This document shows, in pieces, positions 7,251 through 26,482 of a stretch of DNA of 38,060 nucleotides. The notes below the pieces were generated by a model. The model was not told the origin of the DNA, ran no database searches, and saw only the letters and a program-made list of their open reading frames with translations. Made by a program: the position numbers and the translations under genes. This DNA comes from Gammaproteobacteria bacterium (GTDB lineage Bacteria; Pseudomonadota; Gammaproteobacteria; UBA6429; Thiohalophilaceae), in assembly GCA_026197095.1 (NCBI GenBank), contig JAPHTF010000071.1, forward strand, positions 1-38,060, in the 5' to 3' direction. Numbering within the stretch: position 1 is the stretch's first letter; every line of letters starts with the position of its first letter.

Positions 7251-8288
7251 ATGTCGGTTAACGAACTATTATCACAAGATGAAATTGATGCGCTGTTACA
7301 CGGCGTCGATGATGGTGAAGTAGAAACAGAAAACGATCTTGAATTACAAGACGGTGTCGCGCGTGAATTTGATTTTGCTTCACATGATCGAATTGTTCGT
7401 GGTCGTATGCCGACACTTGAAATGATCAATGAACGTTTTGCTCGCAGTTTCCGTATATCTTTATTTAATATGTTACGCCGTTCAGCTGAAATTTCAGTAA
7501 GCGGCGTTCAAATGGTCAAATTCTCTGAATACCTTCATAGCATGTTTGTGCCCACAAGTTTAAATATTGTAAAACTTCACCCTTTACGTGGCTCAGCATT
7601 ATGTGTGCTTGATCCAAAGCTTGTATTTATTCTGGTAGACAATTACTACGGTGGAGTAGGGCGTCACGCAAAAATAGAAGGGCGTGACTTTTCAGCAACG
7701 GAACAACGTGTAATAAGTATTGTATTACAAGACGCCTTTAAAGATTTGGAAGAGGCATGGAAGCCCGTAATGAAGGTGAATTTTGAATTTTCAAGTATGG
7801 AAGTTAATCCTCAATTTGCAAACATTGTCAGTCCAACTGAAGTGGTAGTCGTATCAACTTTCCATATTGAGCTCGATGGTGGTGGTGGAGACTTTATGGT
7901 AACCATTCCCTATTCAATGGTTGAGCCGATCCGTGATTTACTTGACGCAGGTATTGCCAGCGACATTACAGACAAAGATGAACGATGGGTCATATCGCTA
8001 CGAGAAGAAATCAAACTTGCAGAAGTTGAAATGTCATGCAACTTAACTGAAATTACACTACCACTGTATGATGTTTTGAATTTAAAAGAAGGTGACATAT
8101 TACCCATTTCGATGCCAGACGTCGTGACTCTTCGTGCTGAAGATATTCCCGTTTTACGAGGGAAAGTGGGTGAGTCTAGAGGAAGTAAGGCAGTAAAAAT
8201 TACTCAAGCAGTTGATCATTCTATTGACAACGAATTAGCTGGTTTAGGTACAACACAAAAACGATTAGAAGGTGGACATCATGAGTGA
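7251..8288 (+). CDS. fliM: Flagellar motor switch protein FliM
   Basis: A 345-residue C-ring switch protein. The N-terminal segment NELLSQDEIDALLHGV matches the conserved peptide that binds phospho-CheY. The middle domain carries MVKFSEYLHS and the SALCVLDPKLVFILVDNYYGG segment expected for FliG contact, and a SpoA (FliN-like) domain closes the protein with LPISMPDVVTL. CheY, CheZ, MotA and FliN, its functional partners, are all in this window. Its last 8 bases overlap fliN (ATGAGTGA), so translation of the two is coupled. Confidence 0.96.
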   Translation: MSVNELLSQDEIDALLHGVDDGEVETENDLELQDGVAREFDFASHDRIVRGRMPTLEMINERFARSFRISLFNMLRRSAEISVSGVQMVKFSEYLHSMFVPTSLNIVKLHPLRGSALCVLDPKLVFILVDNYYGGVGRHAKIEGRDFSATEQRVISIVLQDAFKDLEEAWKPVMKVNFEFSSMEVNPQFANIVSPTEVVVVSTFHIELDGGGGDFMVTIPYSMVEPIRDLLDAGIASDITDKDERWVISLREEIKLAEVEMSCNLTEITLPLYDVLNLKEGDILPISMPDVVTLRAEDIPVLRGKVGESRGSKAVKITQAVDHSIDNELAGLGTTQKRLEGGHHE

Positions 8289-17539: not shown

Positions 17540-17923
17540 GTGGACACGGATATGAAAATTCTTGTTGTAGATGATTTTTCTACAATGCGTCGAATAATTA
17601 AAAACTTACTACGTGATTTGGGCTTTAATAATACTGATGAAGCTGATGATGGCTTGACTGCATTACCCATGTTAAAGACGGGTAAGTACGATTTATTAGT
17701 GACCGATTGGAATATGCCTGGCATGCAAGGTATCGACTTACTTAAAGCGGTACGTGCAGATGAAAATCTACAAAATATCCCCGTGCTGATGGTAACTGCG
17801 GAACAGAAAAAAGAGCAGATTGTTGAAGCGGCTCAGGCTGGTGTTAATGGCTACATAGTTAAACCCTTTACGGCTTTAATTTTAAAAGAAAAACTAGAGA
17901 AAATTTTCGCACGTATTGGTTAA
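17540..17923 (+). CDS. cheY: Chemotaxis response regulator CheY
   Basis: A 127-residue single-domain receiver that carries the signal from CheA to FliM. The acidic pocket is Asp11-Asp12, the phosphorylated residue is Asp56 ([10 protein letters not shown]), and the switch residues are Thr86 and Lys108. I chose GTG 17540 because GGAGG lies 7 bases upstream; Met5 at 17552 would put that site too far away. cheZ follows after 22 bases. Confidence 0.96.
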
Positions 17924-17945: not shown

Positions 17946-18680
17946 ATGATTGAAGATGATGAGCTTATAACAGACGATAATATAGCACGTGTCAGAGACC
18001 TGTTAGCATGCATGCAAAAAGGCAATGAAGAAGATGCTATTGAGATTATTGATGAATTAACAACAATTCGTGAGACTGAGTTATATCAGGATATGGGTAA
18101 ATTAACCCGTGAATTACATGATGCTATTTCTAATTTTGGAATGGATGACTCAATCAACATTATGGCTGAACAAAGCATTCCTGATGCAAGAGAACGTTTG
18201 AAATATGTCATATCTAAAACTGATGAGGCAGCTAATAAAACGCTTGAAGCCGTAGAAGAATCTATACCTATCTGCGATAACTTAAATAATAAGGCATCAG
18301 AATTGCATGAGTCATGGAAGAAATTTACCAATAGAGAGCTATCTGCAGATGAATTTCGTACTTTGAGTAAAGATATCAGCCATTTTTTTGATAAAACGGC
18401 TGAATTGGGCACAGTAAAAGATCATTTAACATCGGTCTTATTGGCTCAAGAATATCAGGATTTAACAGGGCAAATAATAAAGAAAGTCATTAATCTTGTT
18501 GGCGAAGTAGAAGATAAACTTGTTGGATTAATTAAAATAACCGGTGCTCCCCAGGTGACCAAGAAATCTGGTGGTGACGCAGGTACGCTTGATGGTCCAC
18601 CTGTTCCTGGCATTGCACATAAAGACACTGTTTCAGGTCAGGACGAAGTTGACGATTTACTTTCAAGTTTAGGTTTTTAA
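17946..18680 (+). CDS. cheZ: CheY phosphatase CheZ
   Basis: A 244-residue CheZ, which removes phosphate from CheY. The catalytic helix has Asp172 and Gln176 in EYQDLTGQIIKKVI, matching E. coli Asp143 and Gln147. The C-terminal peptide DEVDDLLSSLGF is the CheY-binding tail, joined by a flexible linker. The protein is about 30 residues longer than E. coli CheZ, mainly at the N-terminus. AAGGGG precedes the ATG. Confidence 0.95.
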   Translation: MIEDDELITDDNIARVRDLLACMQKGNEEDAIEIIDELTTIRETELYQDMGKLTRELHDAISNFGMDDSINIMAEQSIPDARERLKYVISKTDEAANKTLEAVEESIPICDNLNNKASELHESWKKFTNRELSADEFRTLSKDISHFFDKTAELGTVKDHLTSVLLAQEYQDLTGQIIKKVINLVGEVEDKLVGLIKITGAPQVTKKSGGDAGTLDGPPVPGIAHKDTVSGQDEVDDLLSSLGF

Positions 18681-18704: not shown

Positions 18705-20897
18705 ATGGATGATGAATTACTTGAGGACTTTTTGATTGAAGCAGGAGAGATTCTTGAGCAACTGAATGAGCAGTTGGTAGAACTTGAGAATAGTCCTGAT
18801 GATTCAGATTTATTAAACGCAGTCTTTCGTGGTTTTCATACGATTAAAGGCGGGGCAGGTTTTCTTGCAATAGATGTTATGGTTGCAATTTGTCATCGCA
18901 CTGAAGATATTTTTAACATGCTTCGTAATAACGAGCTCAGCATTGATAATCATTTAATGGATACCGTTTTACCAGTGCTTGATGTCTTAAATGCACAGTT
19001 TGATGCATTACGTAGTGGCGAAGAACCCGAAGCGGCTGAACAATCCTTGTTATCTGCACTTGAAGGTATTATTTCTGGTAAAGCAGCATCAGAAGATGTT
19101 GCAGAAGAATCACAACCTGTCGCTAAAGTTGTGCAAGAAGCGACAGCATCTGGCTCAGAAGATATTTCAGATGATGAATTTGATGCATTGCTTGATGCAT
19201 TAGAAAACCCTTCAACAGAAGCCCTTAAAATTCAGACTAAAACTCACTCAGATGAAATTACTGATGATGAATTTGAAGCGTTGCTAGATGACTTGCATGG
19301 TAAAGGACAGTTCTCTGGTGAAGCAAAGGCTAAGAGCGCAACAACAAGTTATGAAGAAAGTAAAAAAGAGGATGAAATTTCCGAAGATGAATTTGAAGCA
19401 TTATTAGATGACCTGCATGGTAAAGGATCATTTTCTGGAGATGTTGCTAAACAATCTGGTAGTGAGGTAAAAGAATCTAAAAGTTATGAAGAAAATAAGA
19501 AAGACGATGAGATAACTGAAGATGAGTTTGAATCTTTACTTGATGATTTACATGGTAAGGGCCAATTCTCTGCAAATACACAAACTGATGAAAAAGCATC
19601 AGTACCTGAAGCTGCAAAAAAATCGCTAGCTAAAGCACAACCACCTGCCAGAAAAGACACATCTATAGCTGCAACTAAAGCAGCTGTTCCTGAGAAACCT
19701 AAACTGGTTAAAGATGCAAAACCTGCAGCAGAAACCTCAGTTCGTGTTGACACTAGTCGCCTTGATGAAATTATGAATATGGTAGGCGAACTTGTATTAG
19801 TTAGAAATCGTATTTCTCGATTAGGTTCAGAGGGTGGAGATGCTTCTGGTGAAGAAATGACTAAAGCTATTGCAAACCTTGATTTAGTGACTGCAGATTT
19901 ACAATTATCTGTAATGAAAACACGGATGCAACCAATCAAAAAAGTATTCGGACGTTTCCCTCGGGTTGTTCGTGATTTAGCTCGGAGTTTAAATAAAGAT
20001 ATTAAATTAGAAATGATCGGTGAAGAGACTGATTTAGATAAAAATTTAGTTGAAGCACTAGCGGATCCGCTTGTTCATTTAGTTCGTAATTCAGTCGATC
20101 ATGGTGTAGAAATGCCTGATGTCCGAGAAAAAGCAGGAAAACCTCGCCAGGGCACTGTGACTTTAGCGGCATCGCAAGAAGGTGATCATATTTTACTTTC
20201 AATCACGGATGATGGTGGTGGTATGGATGCGGATGTTCTAAGAAATATAGCGATTAAAAAAGGTATACATGATAAAGAATCAGCATCACGGTTAACGGAT
20301 GTAGAGTGTTATAACTTAATTTTTGCACCAGGTTTTTCAACTAAAGAAAAAATTTCTGATATTTCAGGCCGTGGCGTAGGAATGGATGTCGTTAAAACAG
20401 GCATTACCTCTCTAAATGGTTCAATAGAAATTGATTCCAAGTTAGGCGAAGGGACGATTATCAGAATTAAAGTTCCTTTAACGCTCGCAATTATGTCTAC
20501 CTTAATGGTGCGGCTAAAAGATCAATTGTTTTCTTTGCCTTTGGTAAATGTAAATGAAATTTTCCATCTGGATTTAACCAAAACAAATATCATGGATGGA
20601 AAACGCGTTGTTCTTGTTAGAGGAAAAACTTTACCCTTATATTACTTAAATAACTGGCTGGTTAATGGAGAAAGGAATGCTCCTTTACCTGATGCAGGAC
20701 ATGTCGTGGTTGTTCATATAGGTACGCAAAAAGTTGGTTTTATTGTAGATGAACTTATAGGGCAGGAAGAAGTTGTTATTAAACCATTAGGTGCAATGTT
20801 ACATGGTATTTCTGGTTTAGCCGGCGCAACTATCACAGGTGATGGCGGTATAGCACTTATACTTGATATTCCTGGCTTAATGAAAATGTATGCCTAA
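18705..20897 (+). CDS. cheA: Chemotaxis histidine kinase CheA
   Basis: A 730-residue CheA. The Hpt domain (about 1-105) has the phosphorylated His45 in FRGFHTIKGGAGF. No standard P2 domain is recognisable; residues 150-290 instead carry four copies of an acidic motif of the type ISEDEFEALLDDLHGKG. A basic, Ala/Pro-rich stretch leads to the dimerisation domain from about 346 (RVDTSRLDEIMNMVGELVLV). The ATPase domain has the N box HLVRNSVDHGVE, the G1 box DDGGGMD and the G2 box GRGVGMDVV. A CheW-like domain closes the protein (about 595-730). CheW, CheY, CheZ, CheB and ParP are all nearby; no CheR is in the window. Confidence 0.95.
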   Translation: MDDELLEDFLIEAGEILEQLNEQLVELENSPDDSDLLNAVFRGFHTIKGGAGFLAIDVMVAICHRTEDIFNMLRNNELSIDNHLMDTVLPVLDVLNAQFDALRSGEEPEAAEQSLLSALEGIISGKAASEDVAEESQPVAKVVQEATASGSEDISDDEFDALLDALENPSTEALKIQTKTHSDEITDDEFEALLDDLHGKGQFSGEAKAKSATTSYEESKKEDEISEDEFEALLDDLHGKGSFSGDVAKQSGSEVKESKSYEENKKDDEITEDEFESLLDDLHGKGQFSANTQTDEKASVPEAAKKSLAKAQPPARKDTSIAATKAAVPEKPKLVKDAKPAAETSVRVDTSRLDEIMNMVGELVLVRNRISRLGSEGGDASGEEMTKAIANLDLVTADLQLSVMKTRMQPIKKVFGRFPRVVRDLARSLNKDIKLEMIGEETDLDKNLVEALADPLVHLVRNSVDHGVEMPDVREKAGKPRQGTVTLAASQEGDHILLSITDDGGGMDADVLRNIAIKKGIHDKESASRLTDVECYNLIFAPGFSTKEKISDISGRGVGMDVVKTGITSLNGSIEIDSKLGEGTIIRIKVPLTLAIMSTLMVRLKDQLFSLPLVNVNEIFHLDLTKTNIMDGKRVVLVRGKTLPLYYLNNWLVNGERNAPLPDAGHVVVVHIGTQKVGFIVDELIGQEEVVIKPLGAMLHGISGLAGATITGDGGIALILDIPGLMKMYA
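19161..19571 (+). repeat. Four-copy acidic linker repeat within cheA
   Basis: Translated copies start near residues 153 (DISDDEFDALLDAL), 184 (EITDDEFEALLDDLHGKG), 224 (EISEDEFEALLDDLHGKG) and 269 (EITEDEFESLLDDLHGKG). Copies 2-4 also share a following FS and are spaced about 40-45 residues apart; copy 1 is truncated and spaced 31. The DNA of copies 2-4 is similar but not identical, so this is an older duplication kept at the protein level. Confidence 0.85.
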
Positions 20898-22780: not shown

Positions 22781-23638
22781 ATGGCCAGAAGAAAATCTCC
22801 CCCACATGAATCCGAAAATACCGATCGTTGGATGGTATCCTACGCAGACTTTGTAACTTTACTCTTTGCTTTTTTTGTTGTTATGTATGCGATATCTTCG
22901 ATTAATGAAGGTAAATACCGTGTACTTTCTGACACAATGACAGAAGCATTTAAAGTTTCCCCCAAATCACCGGATCCCATACAAGTTGGTAAAGAACCCA
23001 CGGCGATTAAAGCTAACGAGCAAGGTAGTGAAATAATTAAACCTGTACAAATATTACCTAAACCTCAGCGTACTTATGCTCGTGAGATGAAACAAATTGC
23101 TGATACAGTGAGTAAGTCTGTTCAGCCGCTTATTGATAAAGGTTTGATAAAAATTACCCAACACAAACTGTGGGTTGAAATTGAGATGAACACAAGTATC
23201 TTGTTCTCTAGTGCTGATTCTGAGTTAGCAGAAGAAGCTTTTCCTGCATTAAAAGCATTAGCAGGTGTCTTAAAAACATTACCAAACTCAATTGATGTAG
23301 AAGGTCATACTGATAACCTTCCAATCAGCAATGACCAATTTCCTTCTAATTGGGAGTTATCTGCCGCGCGCGCTGCGAGCGTCGTTCATCTATTTACGCG
23401 CTATGGCGTATCTCCACAGCGTTTATCATCTATTGGTTATGCTGAATATCGTCCAATCGCAGATAATACAACATCTGACGGTAGATTACGTAATCGTCGG
23501 GTAAAAGTTGTTATTTTGGCTGATAAAAATGCACGCCGCATAGCAGAAATTGATCGAGATGTAGACCAGGCTAAAATAGAGGATAATGGGTTAAAATCAG
23601 ATGAGAGCAATAAAGCGAGCGTGGAAGGTGGGCAGTGA
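22781..23638 (+). CDS. motD: Second flagellar stator subunit, MotD (MotB type)
   Basis: A 285-residue MotB-family protein. The single membrane helix begins near residue 17, and the ion-binding Asp is Asp23 in VSYADFVTLLFAFFVVMYA. The OmpA-like domain (about 140-250) has VEGHTDNLPIS, NWELSAARAASVV and GRLRNRRVKVVI. A charged C-terminal tail follows. It differs clearly from the MotB at 1922-2842 in linker and N-terminus, so it is not a recent duplicate. Its TGA overlaps the GTG of parC. Confidence 0.93.
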   Translation: MARRKSPPHESENTDRWMVSYADFVTLLFAFFVVMYAISSINEGKYRVLSDTMTEAFKVSPKSPDPIQVGKEPTAIKANEQGSEIIKPVQILPKPQRTYAREMKQIADTVSKSVQPLIDKGLIKITQHKLWVEIEMNTSILFSSADSELAEEAFPALKALAGVLKTLPNSIDVEGHTDNLPISNDQFPSNWELSAARAASVVHLFTRYGVSPQRLSSIGYAEYRPIADNTTSDGRLRNRRVKVVILADKNARRIAEIDRDVDQAKIEDNGLKSDESNKASVEGGQ

Positions 23639-24444
23639 AAATTTGGGCAATTGCCAATCAAAAAGGCGGGGTGGGTAAAACAACCTCTGCAGTATCACTT
23701 GCGGGACATTTAGTCTCACAAGGTTTACGCGTATTACTTGTTGATATGGATCCACAGGGATCAATGACTTCTTACTTTAGATTTGATCCTGACGATATGC
23801 CTAAAAGTATTTATTCCCTTTTTCAGCTTGATGATTTTACCACTCAAAGCGTTTCATCCGCATTAGTCGATACTAAAATTGAAGGTTTAAAACTCCTGCC
23901 TGCTTCAACTGCGCTAGCCACACTTGATCGCCAGCTTGGAACAAAAGAAGGTAAGGGCCTGGTATTAAAGAAATCACTTGTCGCGTTAGACGATCATTTT
24001 GATTATGTACTCATCGATTGTTTGCCTATGTTAGGTATTTTAATGGTTAATGCATTAGCTGCGTGTGACACCTTATTAATACCCGTGCAAACAGAGTTTT
24101 TAGCTCTTAAAGGTTTGGATCGAATGATGAATACGCTTGAGATGATTACAAAATCAAGAAAGTCACCTTTAAAATCTATAATTGTGCCGACTATGTTTGA
24201 TCGTCGTACTCGTGCATCACTCGAAAGCTTACGGGCTTTACGAGAAAAATATGGTGATAAAGTGTGGGATTCTGTTATTCCAGTTGATACTAAATTCCGT
24301 GAAGCAAGCCGACAAGGTTTACCTATTTCTTTAATGAGTCAATCAACTCGAGGCTCACAGGCCTACCAGCTATTGTTAGAATCTCTGCTTAATCCAAAAC
24401 GAGAATCACACTTAAAACTCGTGAGTTCAACTAATGGCTTCTAA
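23635..24444 (+). CDS. parC: ParA-like ATPase ParC for chemotaxis array positioning
   Basis: A 269-residue ParA/MinD-type ATPase starting on GTG, overlapping the motD stop. The deviant Walker A is NQKGGVGKTTSAVSLAGHL, and a Walker A' region reads VDMDPQGSMTSYF. In Vibrio and Pseudomonas, a ParA homologue in this exact place (motD-parC-parP-cheW) places the chemoreceptor array at the cell pole. The symbol follows that usage and does not mean topoisomerase IV. No parB or centromere-like site is adjacent, which argues against plasmid or chromosome segregation. It overlaps the next gene by 11 bases. Confidence 0.88.
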   Translation: MKIWAIANQKGGVGKTTSAVSLAGHLVSQGLRVLLVDMDPQGSMTSYFRFDPDDMPKSIYSLFQLDDFTTQSVSSALVDTKIEGLKLLPASTALATLDRQLGTKEGKGLVLKKSLVALDDHFDYVLIDCLPMLGILMVNALAACDTLLIPVQTEFLALKGLDRMMNTLEMITKSRKSPLKSIIVPTMFDRRTRASLESLRALREKYGDKVWDSVIPVDTKFREASRQGLPISLMSQSTRGSQAYQLLLESLLNPKRESHLKLVSSTNGF

Positions 24445-25171
24445 TAAACACAATACACTTGTTGATGAGAAACTTGCGGTTTCTTTATTTTTAGATTCAT
24501 TACTACGTGAGCCTGAAGAAGAAACGAGCATTGCTGTTGCTACACCTGAAATTACGCCTGTTGTGGAAATTAAACCCATTGAAACAGTTCCTGAGATTGA
24601 ACCATCTATTGCCGGGAAGGTGAATGAGCCTGAAGCAAATGTTCTAACTGAAAAAAAGGTTGATTCAACGGCACATATAGATATCACTACAGATTCTATT
24701 GTCCCTGACTGGGCTAATGAACCTTTTCAAATTCTTTTGTTTGAAGTAGCTGGATTAAAGCTTGCTGTTCCTTTGATTGAATTAAGTGGCGTCATTGAAT
24801 GGAGAGATACCGTTACTGAAATGCCAGGCCATGCTGACTTCTACATGGGAATACTTCAGCATTTGGGTTATAAAATAGCTGTTATCGATACTGCAAGAAT
24901 GGTCTTACCCGCCAAAAAATTAGCACAATTTGCCGGTGATAATCCTCGTCAACGTGTTAAACATATCGTTTTAATCGATGATTATCGCTGGGGACTTGCT
25001 TGCGACAATATCGGGGAAGTGATCACCCTAAGGCCTGAAGAGGTGCGCTGGAGAACATCAAAAACAACCCGGGGATGGCTGGCTGGAACGGTTATTGAAC
25101 ATATGTGCGCACTGTTAAACAGCGAAGGTTTCTCTAAAATGCTTGAACAGGGGGGTACTATTTCAGACTAG
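24434..25171 (+). CDS. parP: CheW-domain array-positioning protein ParP
   Basis: A 245-residue protein with a conserved N-terminal segment (EKLAVSLFLDSLLREPEEE, about 12-30), an acidic Glu/Pro-rich linker, and a C-terminal CheW-like domain from about 98 (QILLFEVAGLKLAVPLIELS). Its place after the ParA gene and before cheW matches ParP of Vibrio and Pseudomonas, which links ParC to CheA and keeps arrays at the pole. The overlap with parC indicates coupled translation. Alternative reading: a second CheW-type coupling protein. Confidence 0.85.
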   Translation: MASNKHNTLVDEKLAVSLFLDSLLREPEEETSIAVATPEITPVVEIKPIETVPEIEPSIAGKVNEPEANVLTEKKVDSTAHIDITTDSIVPDWANEPFQILLFEVAGLKLAVPLIELSGVIEWRDTVTEMPGHADFYMGILQHLGYKIAVIDTARMVLPAKKLAQFAGDNPRQRVKHIVLIDDYRWGLACDNIGEVITLRPEEVRWRTSKTTRGWLAGTVIEHMCALLNSEGFSKMLEQGGTISD

Positions 25172-26044: not shown

Positions 26045-26482
26045 ATGGAACTACTTACTCAATATTTAAATATTTTAAGTGCAACAGAATGGCTGTTGGC
26101 TTCTGTAGCGGTAATTCTTGTCATGAGTTTATTTTCATTTAGACGCCAACGTAAATTACAGCAAGAGCAAACTGTTTCTATGCAGGCTTTGCAGCGTGAT
26201 TTACGCGCATTAGCTAATGCAGCAGTGGGTGTTGGTGGCCGAGTCTTAGAAATTGAACGTCAGCAACGTAAACGTCCTGCAGCCATAAATGTACAAGAAC
26301 CTGTGCAAGCTCAAGTTTCAGCACCTATCGAATTTTATAATCCCTCCAGCCATCCTTATGAACAAGCTATTCGTATGGTTCAGACAGGTGCCAGTGTTGA
26401 TGATATAGTCACTGTTTGTGGATTAAGTAAATCAGAAGCAGAGTTAGTTAGCATGATGCATCGACTTGATAAGGCTTCTTAA
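26045..26482 (+). CDS. DUF2802 membrane-anchored protein
   Basis: A 145-residue protein with one N-terminal membrane helix (about 14-31), a basic and Gln-rich coiled-coil-like stretch (RRQRKLQQEQ... to about 75), a linker, and a conserved C-terminal helical domain with YEQAIRMVQTGASVDDIVT and GLSKSEAELVSMMHRL. This is the DUF2802 arrangement, regularly found at the end of chemotaxis-flagellar clusters of this type. The molecular role is not established. AGAGAG precedes the ATG. It is followed by a strong terminator, so it closes the motility unit. Confidence 0.85.
   Translation: MELLTQYLNILSATEWLLASVAVILVMSLFSFRRQRKLQQEQTVSMQALQRDLRALANAAVGVGGRVLEIERQQRKRPAAINVQEPVQAQVSAPIEFYNPSSHPYEQAIRMVQTGASVDDIVTVCGLSKSEAELVSMMHRLDKAS

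Follow-up and report, generated by a model that had tools for sequence, protein, structure and literature searches.

The docking of CheY on the chemotaxis kinase CheA is pictured after the P2 domains of the E. coli and Thermotoga kinases. The cheA gene on contig JAPHTF010000071.1 of a gammaproteobacterium of the Thiohalophilaceae (assembly GCA_026197095.1; positions 1 to 38,060, the whole stretch analysed, hereafter the window) raises the question of what takes the place of that domain, since the linker of about 220 residues between its Hpt and dimerisation domains carries four copies of a short acidic motif resembling the CheY-binding peptides of FliM and CheZ. The answer favoured here, with modest confidence, is that in CheAs of this type P2 is replaced by helices that would dock CheY multivalently.

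Repeats in the CheA linker and their distribution

The kinase gene and the elements discussed below are the following:
cheA, 18705..20897, + strand: 730 aa; Hpt, a disordered linker that holds the four motif helices, then dimerisation, ATPase and CheW-like domains
P1/Hpt domain of CheA, residues 4-104, 18714..19016, + strand: Pfam PF01627, E 2e-16; AlphaFold2 pLDDT >90
motif copy 1, DISDDEFDALLDALEN, 19161..19208, + strand: without the LHGKG tail; profile match; predicted helix 156-167
motif copy 2, EITDDEFEALLDDLHGKG, 19254..19307, + strand: profile match; predicted helix 187-198
motif copy 3, EISEDEFEALLDDLHGKG, 19374..19427, + strand: profile match; predicted helix 227-237
motif copy 4, EITEDEFESLLDDLHGKG, 19509..19562, + strand: profile match; predicted helix 272-282

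Four 18-residue stretches, at residues 153-170, 184-201, 224-241 and 269-286, contain the core [IL][ST]xxEF[DE]xLLD, and all four window copies share DEF[DE]xLLD. A first-pass annotation of this DNA had described four copies of a motif ending in LLDDLHGKG; the four cores stand, whereas the tail is confined to copies 2-4, copy 1 reading LLDALENP. Each motif opens with a helix N-cap box (T/S-x-x-E), after which comes an amphipathic acidic helix. At 66-84% identity, and with spacings of 93, 120 and 135 nt, the copies form diverged direct repeats in the DNA, over which Tandem Repeats Finder reported no tandem array. Two or more core motifs appeared in none of 2000 shuffles of the window linker, indicating that the repeats exceed chance.

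With only the catalytic half of CheA as query, and hence no part for the linker, 114 genomes drawn from across the class were searched; from the matches listed, 80 loci were taken, 39 as F6-type and 41 as other CheAs. Matches lacking the query start (ChpA-like long open reading frames (ORFs) and others; L133, an exception, was taken), some partial rows (e.g. G048:C104, G057:C103, G060:C10 and G033:C97), the full-length G079:C375 and the low-scoring tail were not taken, and a second CheA of G023, lying inside L123, was not scored with the other CheAs. The split was made by identity and gene order. Catalytic halves of the F6-type group were mostly 57-75% identical, with two at 49-53%, against about 35-46% in the other group, L123 (~50% identity) being assigned to the F6 type. 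The window gene order fliA-cheY-cheZ-cheA-cheB ... parC-parP-cheW fits an F6-type chemotaxis CheA by its cheY, cheZ and flagellar genes, and a CheY 67-84% identical to that of the window was encoded in 36 of the 39 F6-type stretches. Two ORFs without the linker (L089 and L109) were dropped, leaving 37 F6-type CheAs; the relaxed-core count given further below used all 39.

All 37 F6-type CheAs with a linker carried one to four motif copies (three copies, n = 20; two, n = 12; four, n = 3; one, n = 2), as against none of the 41 other CheAs, scored with a matrix trained on these same repeats at a threshold of 12 bits. The best scores of 1950 shuffled linkers had a 99th percentile of 7.4 bits and a maximum of 14.0, so that the threshold is not absolute; the weaker copy of L123 scored 14.8 bits, and the other copies at least 22 among the rows listed. 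The E, F, L, L and D of the motif were nearly invariant across the F6-type linkers, in which only two proline columns were conserved elsewhere. The repeats are thus a real and highly conserved feature across a whole class of CheA. Their number, which the first-pass annotation had supposed to differ between strains, varies between species, the level at which it was compared.

When a profile of the 18-residue repeat was run against 150 genomes of the phylum, 21 were matched at E up to 0.05. In 20 of these, all of the same class, the matches fell in ORFs with CheA signatures (29/30 loci), and one further match lay in another ORF of G198 (E 0.046); the remaining genome (G253, another class, E 0.049) held no such motif protein. 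At least two copies were also present in each of 80 named relatives, among them Pseudomonas, Stutzerimonas, Shewanella, Marinobacter, Ferrimonas, Idiomarina and Hahella, which were left out of all frequency claims because one of the scan peptides lay in the motif and biased the query.

Predicted structure of the interval between Hpt and P3

Above the Pfam cut-offs, only Hpt, H-kinase_dim, HATPase_c and CheW were recognised in the window CheA. The missing P2 match proves little by itself, because the same library named a P2 in none of the 41 other CheAs either, and Pfam was therefore rejected as an unfair test of P2 absence. AlphaFold2 was run on residues 1-348 with an alignment of 37 sequences (alignments A1 and A4, the window plus 36 sampled CheAs; L096, with a short N-terminus, was excluded). 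The Hpt bundle was modelled with confidence and the linker after it with low confidence; the only elements of the model past residue 123 were four helices located at the motif copies, with moderate block pLDDT values of ~67-82. Over residues 125-348 the model contained four lone helices, no strand and no P2 fold, which supports the earlier impression that this CheA has no obvious P2, as far as a predicted structure can.

As a control, the equivalent interval of the other CheA group was modelled (alignment A3, with 32 of the 41 other CheAs; first row L140, the genome's own second CheA, G000:C52), and it folded as beta-alpha-beta-beta-alpha-beta with a pLDDT of 89.7, a topology that we take to be that of P2. 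A fold search placed ferredoxin-like folds (PII, S6) nearest in the PDB, with no CheA P2 entry among the matches listed, so the control domain is called P2 by position and topology only. The Hpt-P3 interval of L140 itself is thus confidently predicted to hold a ferredoxin-like domain with the motif GWxIxFxP...GNDP...REL, unnamed by Pfam and probably a P2 subfamily that has no model. Profiles of the two linkers, searched against PDB sequences, gave no meaningful match. P2 and the repeats have in common their place between Hpt and P3 and, as proposed here, the job of docking CheY, but P2 is a folded alpha/beta domain, whereas the window CheA has lone predicted helices in a disordered linker.

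CheY and ParP as candidate partners

The two peptides with which the repeats were compared are encoded in the same window:
FliM N-terminal CheY-binding motif, LLSQDEIDALLHG, 7266..7304, + strand: compared motif, recognised by sequence
CheZ C-terminal CheY-binding peptide, SGQDEVDDLLSSLGF, 18633..18677, + strand: compared motif, recognised by sequence and Pfam CheZ

The window FliM starts with MSVNELLSQDEIDALLHG and its CheZ ends with SGQDEVDDLLSSLGF. The repeat core matched little beyond the two known CheY-binding peptides, LSQDEIDALL of FliM and QDEVDDLLSSLGF of CheZ. Relaxed to [DE][DE]-hydrophobic-[DE]xLL, it was found in 39/39 FliM, 29/35 CheZ and 33/39 F6-type CheA ORFs, as against 1/41 other CheAs and four of 5668 remaining six-frame ORFs, a CheA fragment among the four; in these counts the homologues are not independent, and the relaxation was chosen after the motif had been seen. 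Among the 29 proteins of window positions 1-28989 it occurred once in FliM, once in CheZ, four times in CheA and in no others. A DNA scan of the whole genome gave 18 sites, with no further one in the rest of the window; six fell in FliM, CheZ and CheA genes, and the other 12 were close to the control level of 13. From the 26 other window proteins, 7242 7-mers relaxed to the same degree were tried, and not one matched 30 or more FliM together with 25 or more CheZ, whereas DEFEALL, relaxed likewise, matched 39 and 30.

Like the EIDALL motif of FliM/FliY, the repeats have an S/T-x-x-E box that leads into a short, acidic and amphipathic helix ([LI][ST]xDE-hydrophobic-[DE]ALL), the FliM motif being present once in each FliM examined (39/39). 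With the CheZ peptide, encoded in the same operon as CheA, they share a DE-hydrophobic-D-x-LLxxLG core, although that peptide is single and lies, unlike the repeats, at the extreme C-terminus of a phosphatase. Passages in PMC9126983 place the binding of the FliM/FliY motif between alpha4 and alpha5 of CheY, and in PMC3774744 passages describe CheZ and FliM as using one CheY face and activated V. cholerae CheY3 as binding FliM.

The proposed client is encoded upstream of cheZ and cheA:
cheY, 17540..17923, + strand: proposed client of the motifs; groove positions compared

The groove positions I95, A99, Y106 and K119 (E. coli numbering) were invariant in 36/36 F6-type CheYs, whereas 32 other CheYs mostly differed there, which at the level of sequence shows a groove of the FliM type and is not evidence of CheA binding. 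CheZ (PF04344) was not found in the near-complete genomes G020 (L120) and G086 (L113), both of which have the motif and an F6-type CheY, CheA and FliM, so that CheZ was rejected as an obligate partner; nor was it found in G044, which is fragmented. Another phosphatase may serve in G020 and G086. Since the motif is kept there, and since ParC is also dispensable (see below), CheY is the most economical partner. According to passages of PMC7184735, CheYs that moved from an F6 to an F7 CheA changed at P2-facing residues. Such changes would be expected if the F6 CheA lacked P2. In L105 (G008) the CheA copies have VL for LL and the CheZ C-terminus has IL for LL, while FliM keeps LL, possibly a shared drift of the CheY-binding peptides.

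Taken with the modelled linker, these resemblances favour the alternative that the first-pass annotation had also offered, namely that the repeats are CheY-docking sites, and we judge it somewhat probable that F6-type CheA docks CheY multivalently through FliM/CheZ-like helices in place of P2. In place of P2, a flexible linker would then present short docking helices, and CheY would bind these through its alpha4-beta5-alpha5 groove, as it does the peptides of FliM and CheZ. With as many as four sites on each chain, and eight on a dimer, CheY would be held beside the phosphorylated Hpt histidine, lone helices near Hpt would load it for phosphotransfer, and several sites would raise its local concentration. 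CheY-P would be handed on to CheZ and FliM, competitors for the same groove. Partner, groove and hand-off are all inferred.

Several results weigh against CheY docking. A hidden Markov model (HMM) of the CheA repeats found no significant match in FliM (best E 320) or CheZ (best E 4.5), and a FliM HMM gave E 6.3 for the window CheA and 0.69 for the best CheZ (window CheZ, 5.3), with the best unrelated ORF at 0.16. When a full 15-column position-specific scoring matrix (PSSM) was used, between 5 and 201 of 5668 unrelated ORFs scored higher than any given FliM, and between 11 and 716 higher than any given CheZ, whose best-scoring stretch often lay away from the C-terminus. The known pair FliM/CheZ also scores poorly by profile, which calibrates these values; given the weak profile tests, the link to FliM and CheZ is a resemblance of linear motifs and not a demonstrated homology. 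The CheA copies also differ from the FliM/FliY motif in being internal and present one to four times, in having F/E for I/D and in continuing as LD-x-LHG. FliM-type peptides prefer CheY-P, which would suit retention of the product and not loading of the substrate; given this preference, the CheA version (F/E for I/D, LHG tail) may be tuned differently. Finally, passages in PMC11978298 treat a 'YB (P2)' region as present in P. putida CheA, by Pfam; in our hands two Pseudomonas CheAs gave no Pfam match to P2, even with E values of up to 1 allowed.

The other candidate partner is encoded downstream in the operon, where the first-pass annotation had correctly placed parC and parP:
parC (ParA/MinD-family ATPase), 23635..24444, + strand: Pfam; orthologue survey
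parP (C-terminal CheW-like domain), 24434..25171, + strand: Pfam; survey

Passages in PMC7534058 and PMC5706961 describe the localisation segment (LID) as an extra segment of CheA between P2 and P3, bound by the AIF domain of ParP and found in ParC/ParP species only. The Vibrio LID occupies the same interval of an orthologous CheA that has ParC/ParP. In the linkers inspected by eye, the segment from the last repeat to P3 was Ala/Pro/Lys-rich with no shared block, and the repeats were the only conserved elements of the LID interval, so ParP may use a copy: the Vibrio LID may be one of these copies, and in ParC/ParP species ParP may use one in addition to CheY. The corresponding reading, that an ancestral CheY-docking array had one copy, perhaps the last, taken over by ParP, with CheY and ParP sharing or competing for sites, gathers the points in favour of both partners, and the last copies of L248 and L249 (family f119) bear a shared extension, SGxGPSxEELDAATKP. 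We nonetheless hold it to be unlikely, as no more than two sequences, both from one family, have this extension.

The first-pass annotation had put first the possibility that the repeats are a multi-copy LID, each helix binding the CheW-like AIF domain of ParP and tethering the array to polar ParC, for which the position of parC and parP within the cheA operon, the published location of the LID and the conservation just described all speak. A survey was made with ParC as the marker, because tblastn missed ParP in genomes that have ParC. Its orthologues were 47-63% identical to that of the window, other ParA-type matches reaching at most 38%. Thirty-one of the 37 motif CheAs came from genomes with ParC, 24 with the gene at the fetched locus and seven with it elsewhere in the genome. 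Two of these genomes, G095 (L107) and G006 (L101), had a ParC orthologue and no ParP by tblastn, the latter being diverged or missing. No ParC orthologue was found in the genomes of the other six motif CheAs, G001, G008, G020, G023, G024 and G010 (best ParA-type matches 32-38%; in G010 the best match, 44%, lay beside a different CheA), which were 91-100% complete (lowest in G001, 91% in ~270 contigs). By tblastn, an insensitive search for ParP, five of the six gave no match, and G024 a weak one of 24%.

These six CheAs carry 4, 2, 1, 2, 2 and 2 copies, respectively, those of G023 degenerate, and most copies retain the HG tail. The repeats, in contrast to the LID as reported, therefore also occur without ParC (6/37), ParP-only docking was rejected as their general role, and the proposal of a multi-copy ParP site is not supported in that general form. 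The related expectation that copy number tracks parC/parP fared better: at least three copies were present in 22/31 CheAs with ParC versus 1/6 without (Fisher p 0.02), and copy number was higher with ParC (Mann-Whitney one-sided p 0.027), an association that also counts against CheY docking. Both tests leave relatedness uncontrolled, five of the six CheAs without ParC being more diverged from that of the window than the mean of those with it (49-63% versus 69%), and the motif itself does not need ParC. Overall, we regard the multi-copy LID as quite improbable.

The repeats also resemble SHOCT (PF09851), a Pfam family for which we know of no settled function and whose profile matches [IL]TxxEFxxxxxxL. 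It was detected in 29/37 F6-type N-termini at E up to 0.01 (best 3.3e-8), with scores far above the link to FliM, a further point against CheY docking. The 27-bit cut-off was passed by three of ten individually scored CheAs (L093, 33.4; L087, 32.2; L023, 27.3), and L105 and L120 gave no match; in L087 and L093, SHOCT may share the TxxEF helix-cap core. That the repeats are SHOCT-like or other oligomerisation or scaffolding helices, binding CheA itself or CheW, CheB or CheV and not CheY, is the least probable of the readings, as the window CheA stays below the cut-off (20.1 bits for the whole protein, 24.9 for the N-terminal part), the matches are partial, internal and repeated (no best stretch covers more than 19 of the 28 profile positions, and several copies are summed in the score of a whole protein), and the resemblance to FliM and CheZ and the missing P2 would be left unexplained, while SHOCT similarity is compatible with CheY as the partner.

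CheA class and possible consequences of the proposed CheY docking

Regarding the class assignment, passages in PMC7184735 state that cheZ was in early stages confined to F6 clusters, and PMC9855816 prints the P5 class motifs as LTYIVES for F6 and LVNVNEI for F7. LVNVNEI is present in the window CheA and in that of P. putida, and the window genome's own second CheA has ISIIES; an LVNVNEI-like pattern was found in 48/80 named CheAs and 2/39 sampled F6-type CheAs. Relative to the gene-order classes used here, the F6 and F7 labels in that figure legend appear to be reversed. A DUF2802 protein is encoded at window positions 26045-26482, directly after cheW.

In the openly licensed papers searched no description of the repeats as a CheY dock was found, and the motif strings matched no paper. 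A wider proposition, which we put forward tentatively and consider somewhat doubtful, is that in many gammaproteobacteria (Pseudomonas, Shewanella, Marinobacter and others) the main flagellar CheA has no P2 and docks CheY multivalently through an array of motor-mimicking helices, that kinase, phosphatase and motor read CheY through one shared linear motif whose copy number in CheA sets CheY loading and competition, and that enteric chemotaxis switched to docking on a folded P2 as the F7 kinase replaced its predecessor. Should the repeats indeed dock CheY in CheAs of the Pseudomonas or Shewanella type, a single groove of CheY would be contested by the kinase, CheZ and FliM. Copy number could then tune a multivalent docking, and studies that take P2 for granted in these CheAs would have to be read afresh. 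Such docking would also offer a possible explanation of the changes in CheY, described in passages of PMC7184735, when the F7 kinase took over the motor.

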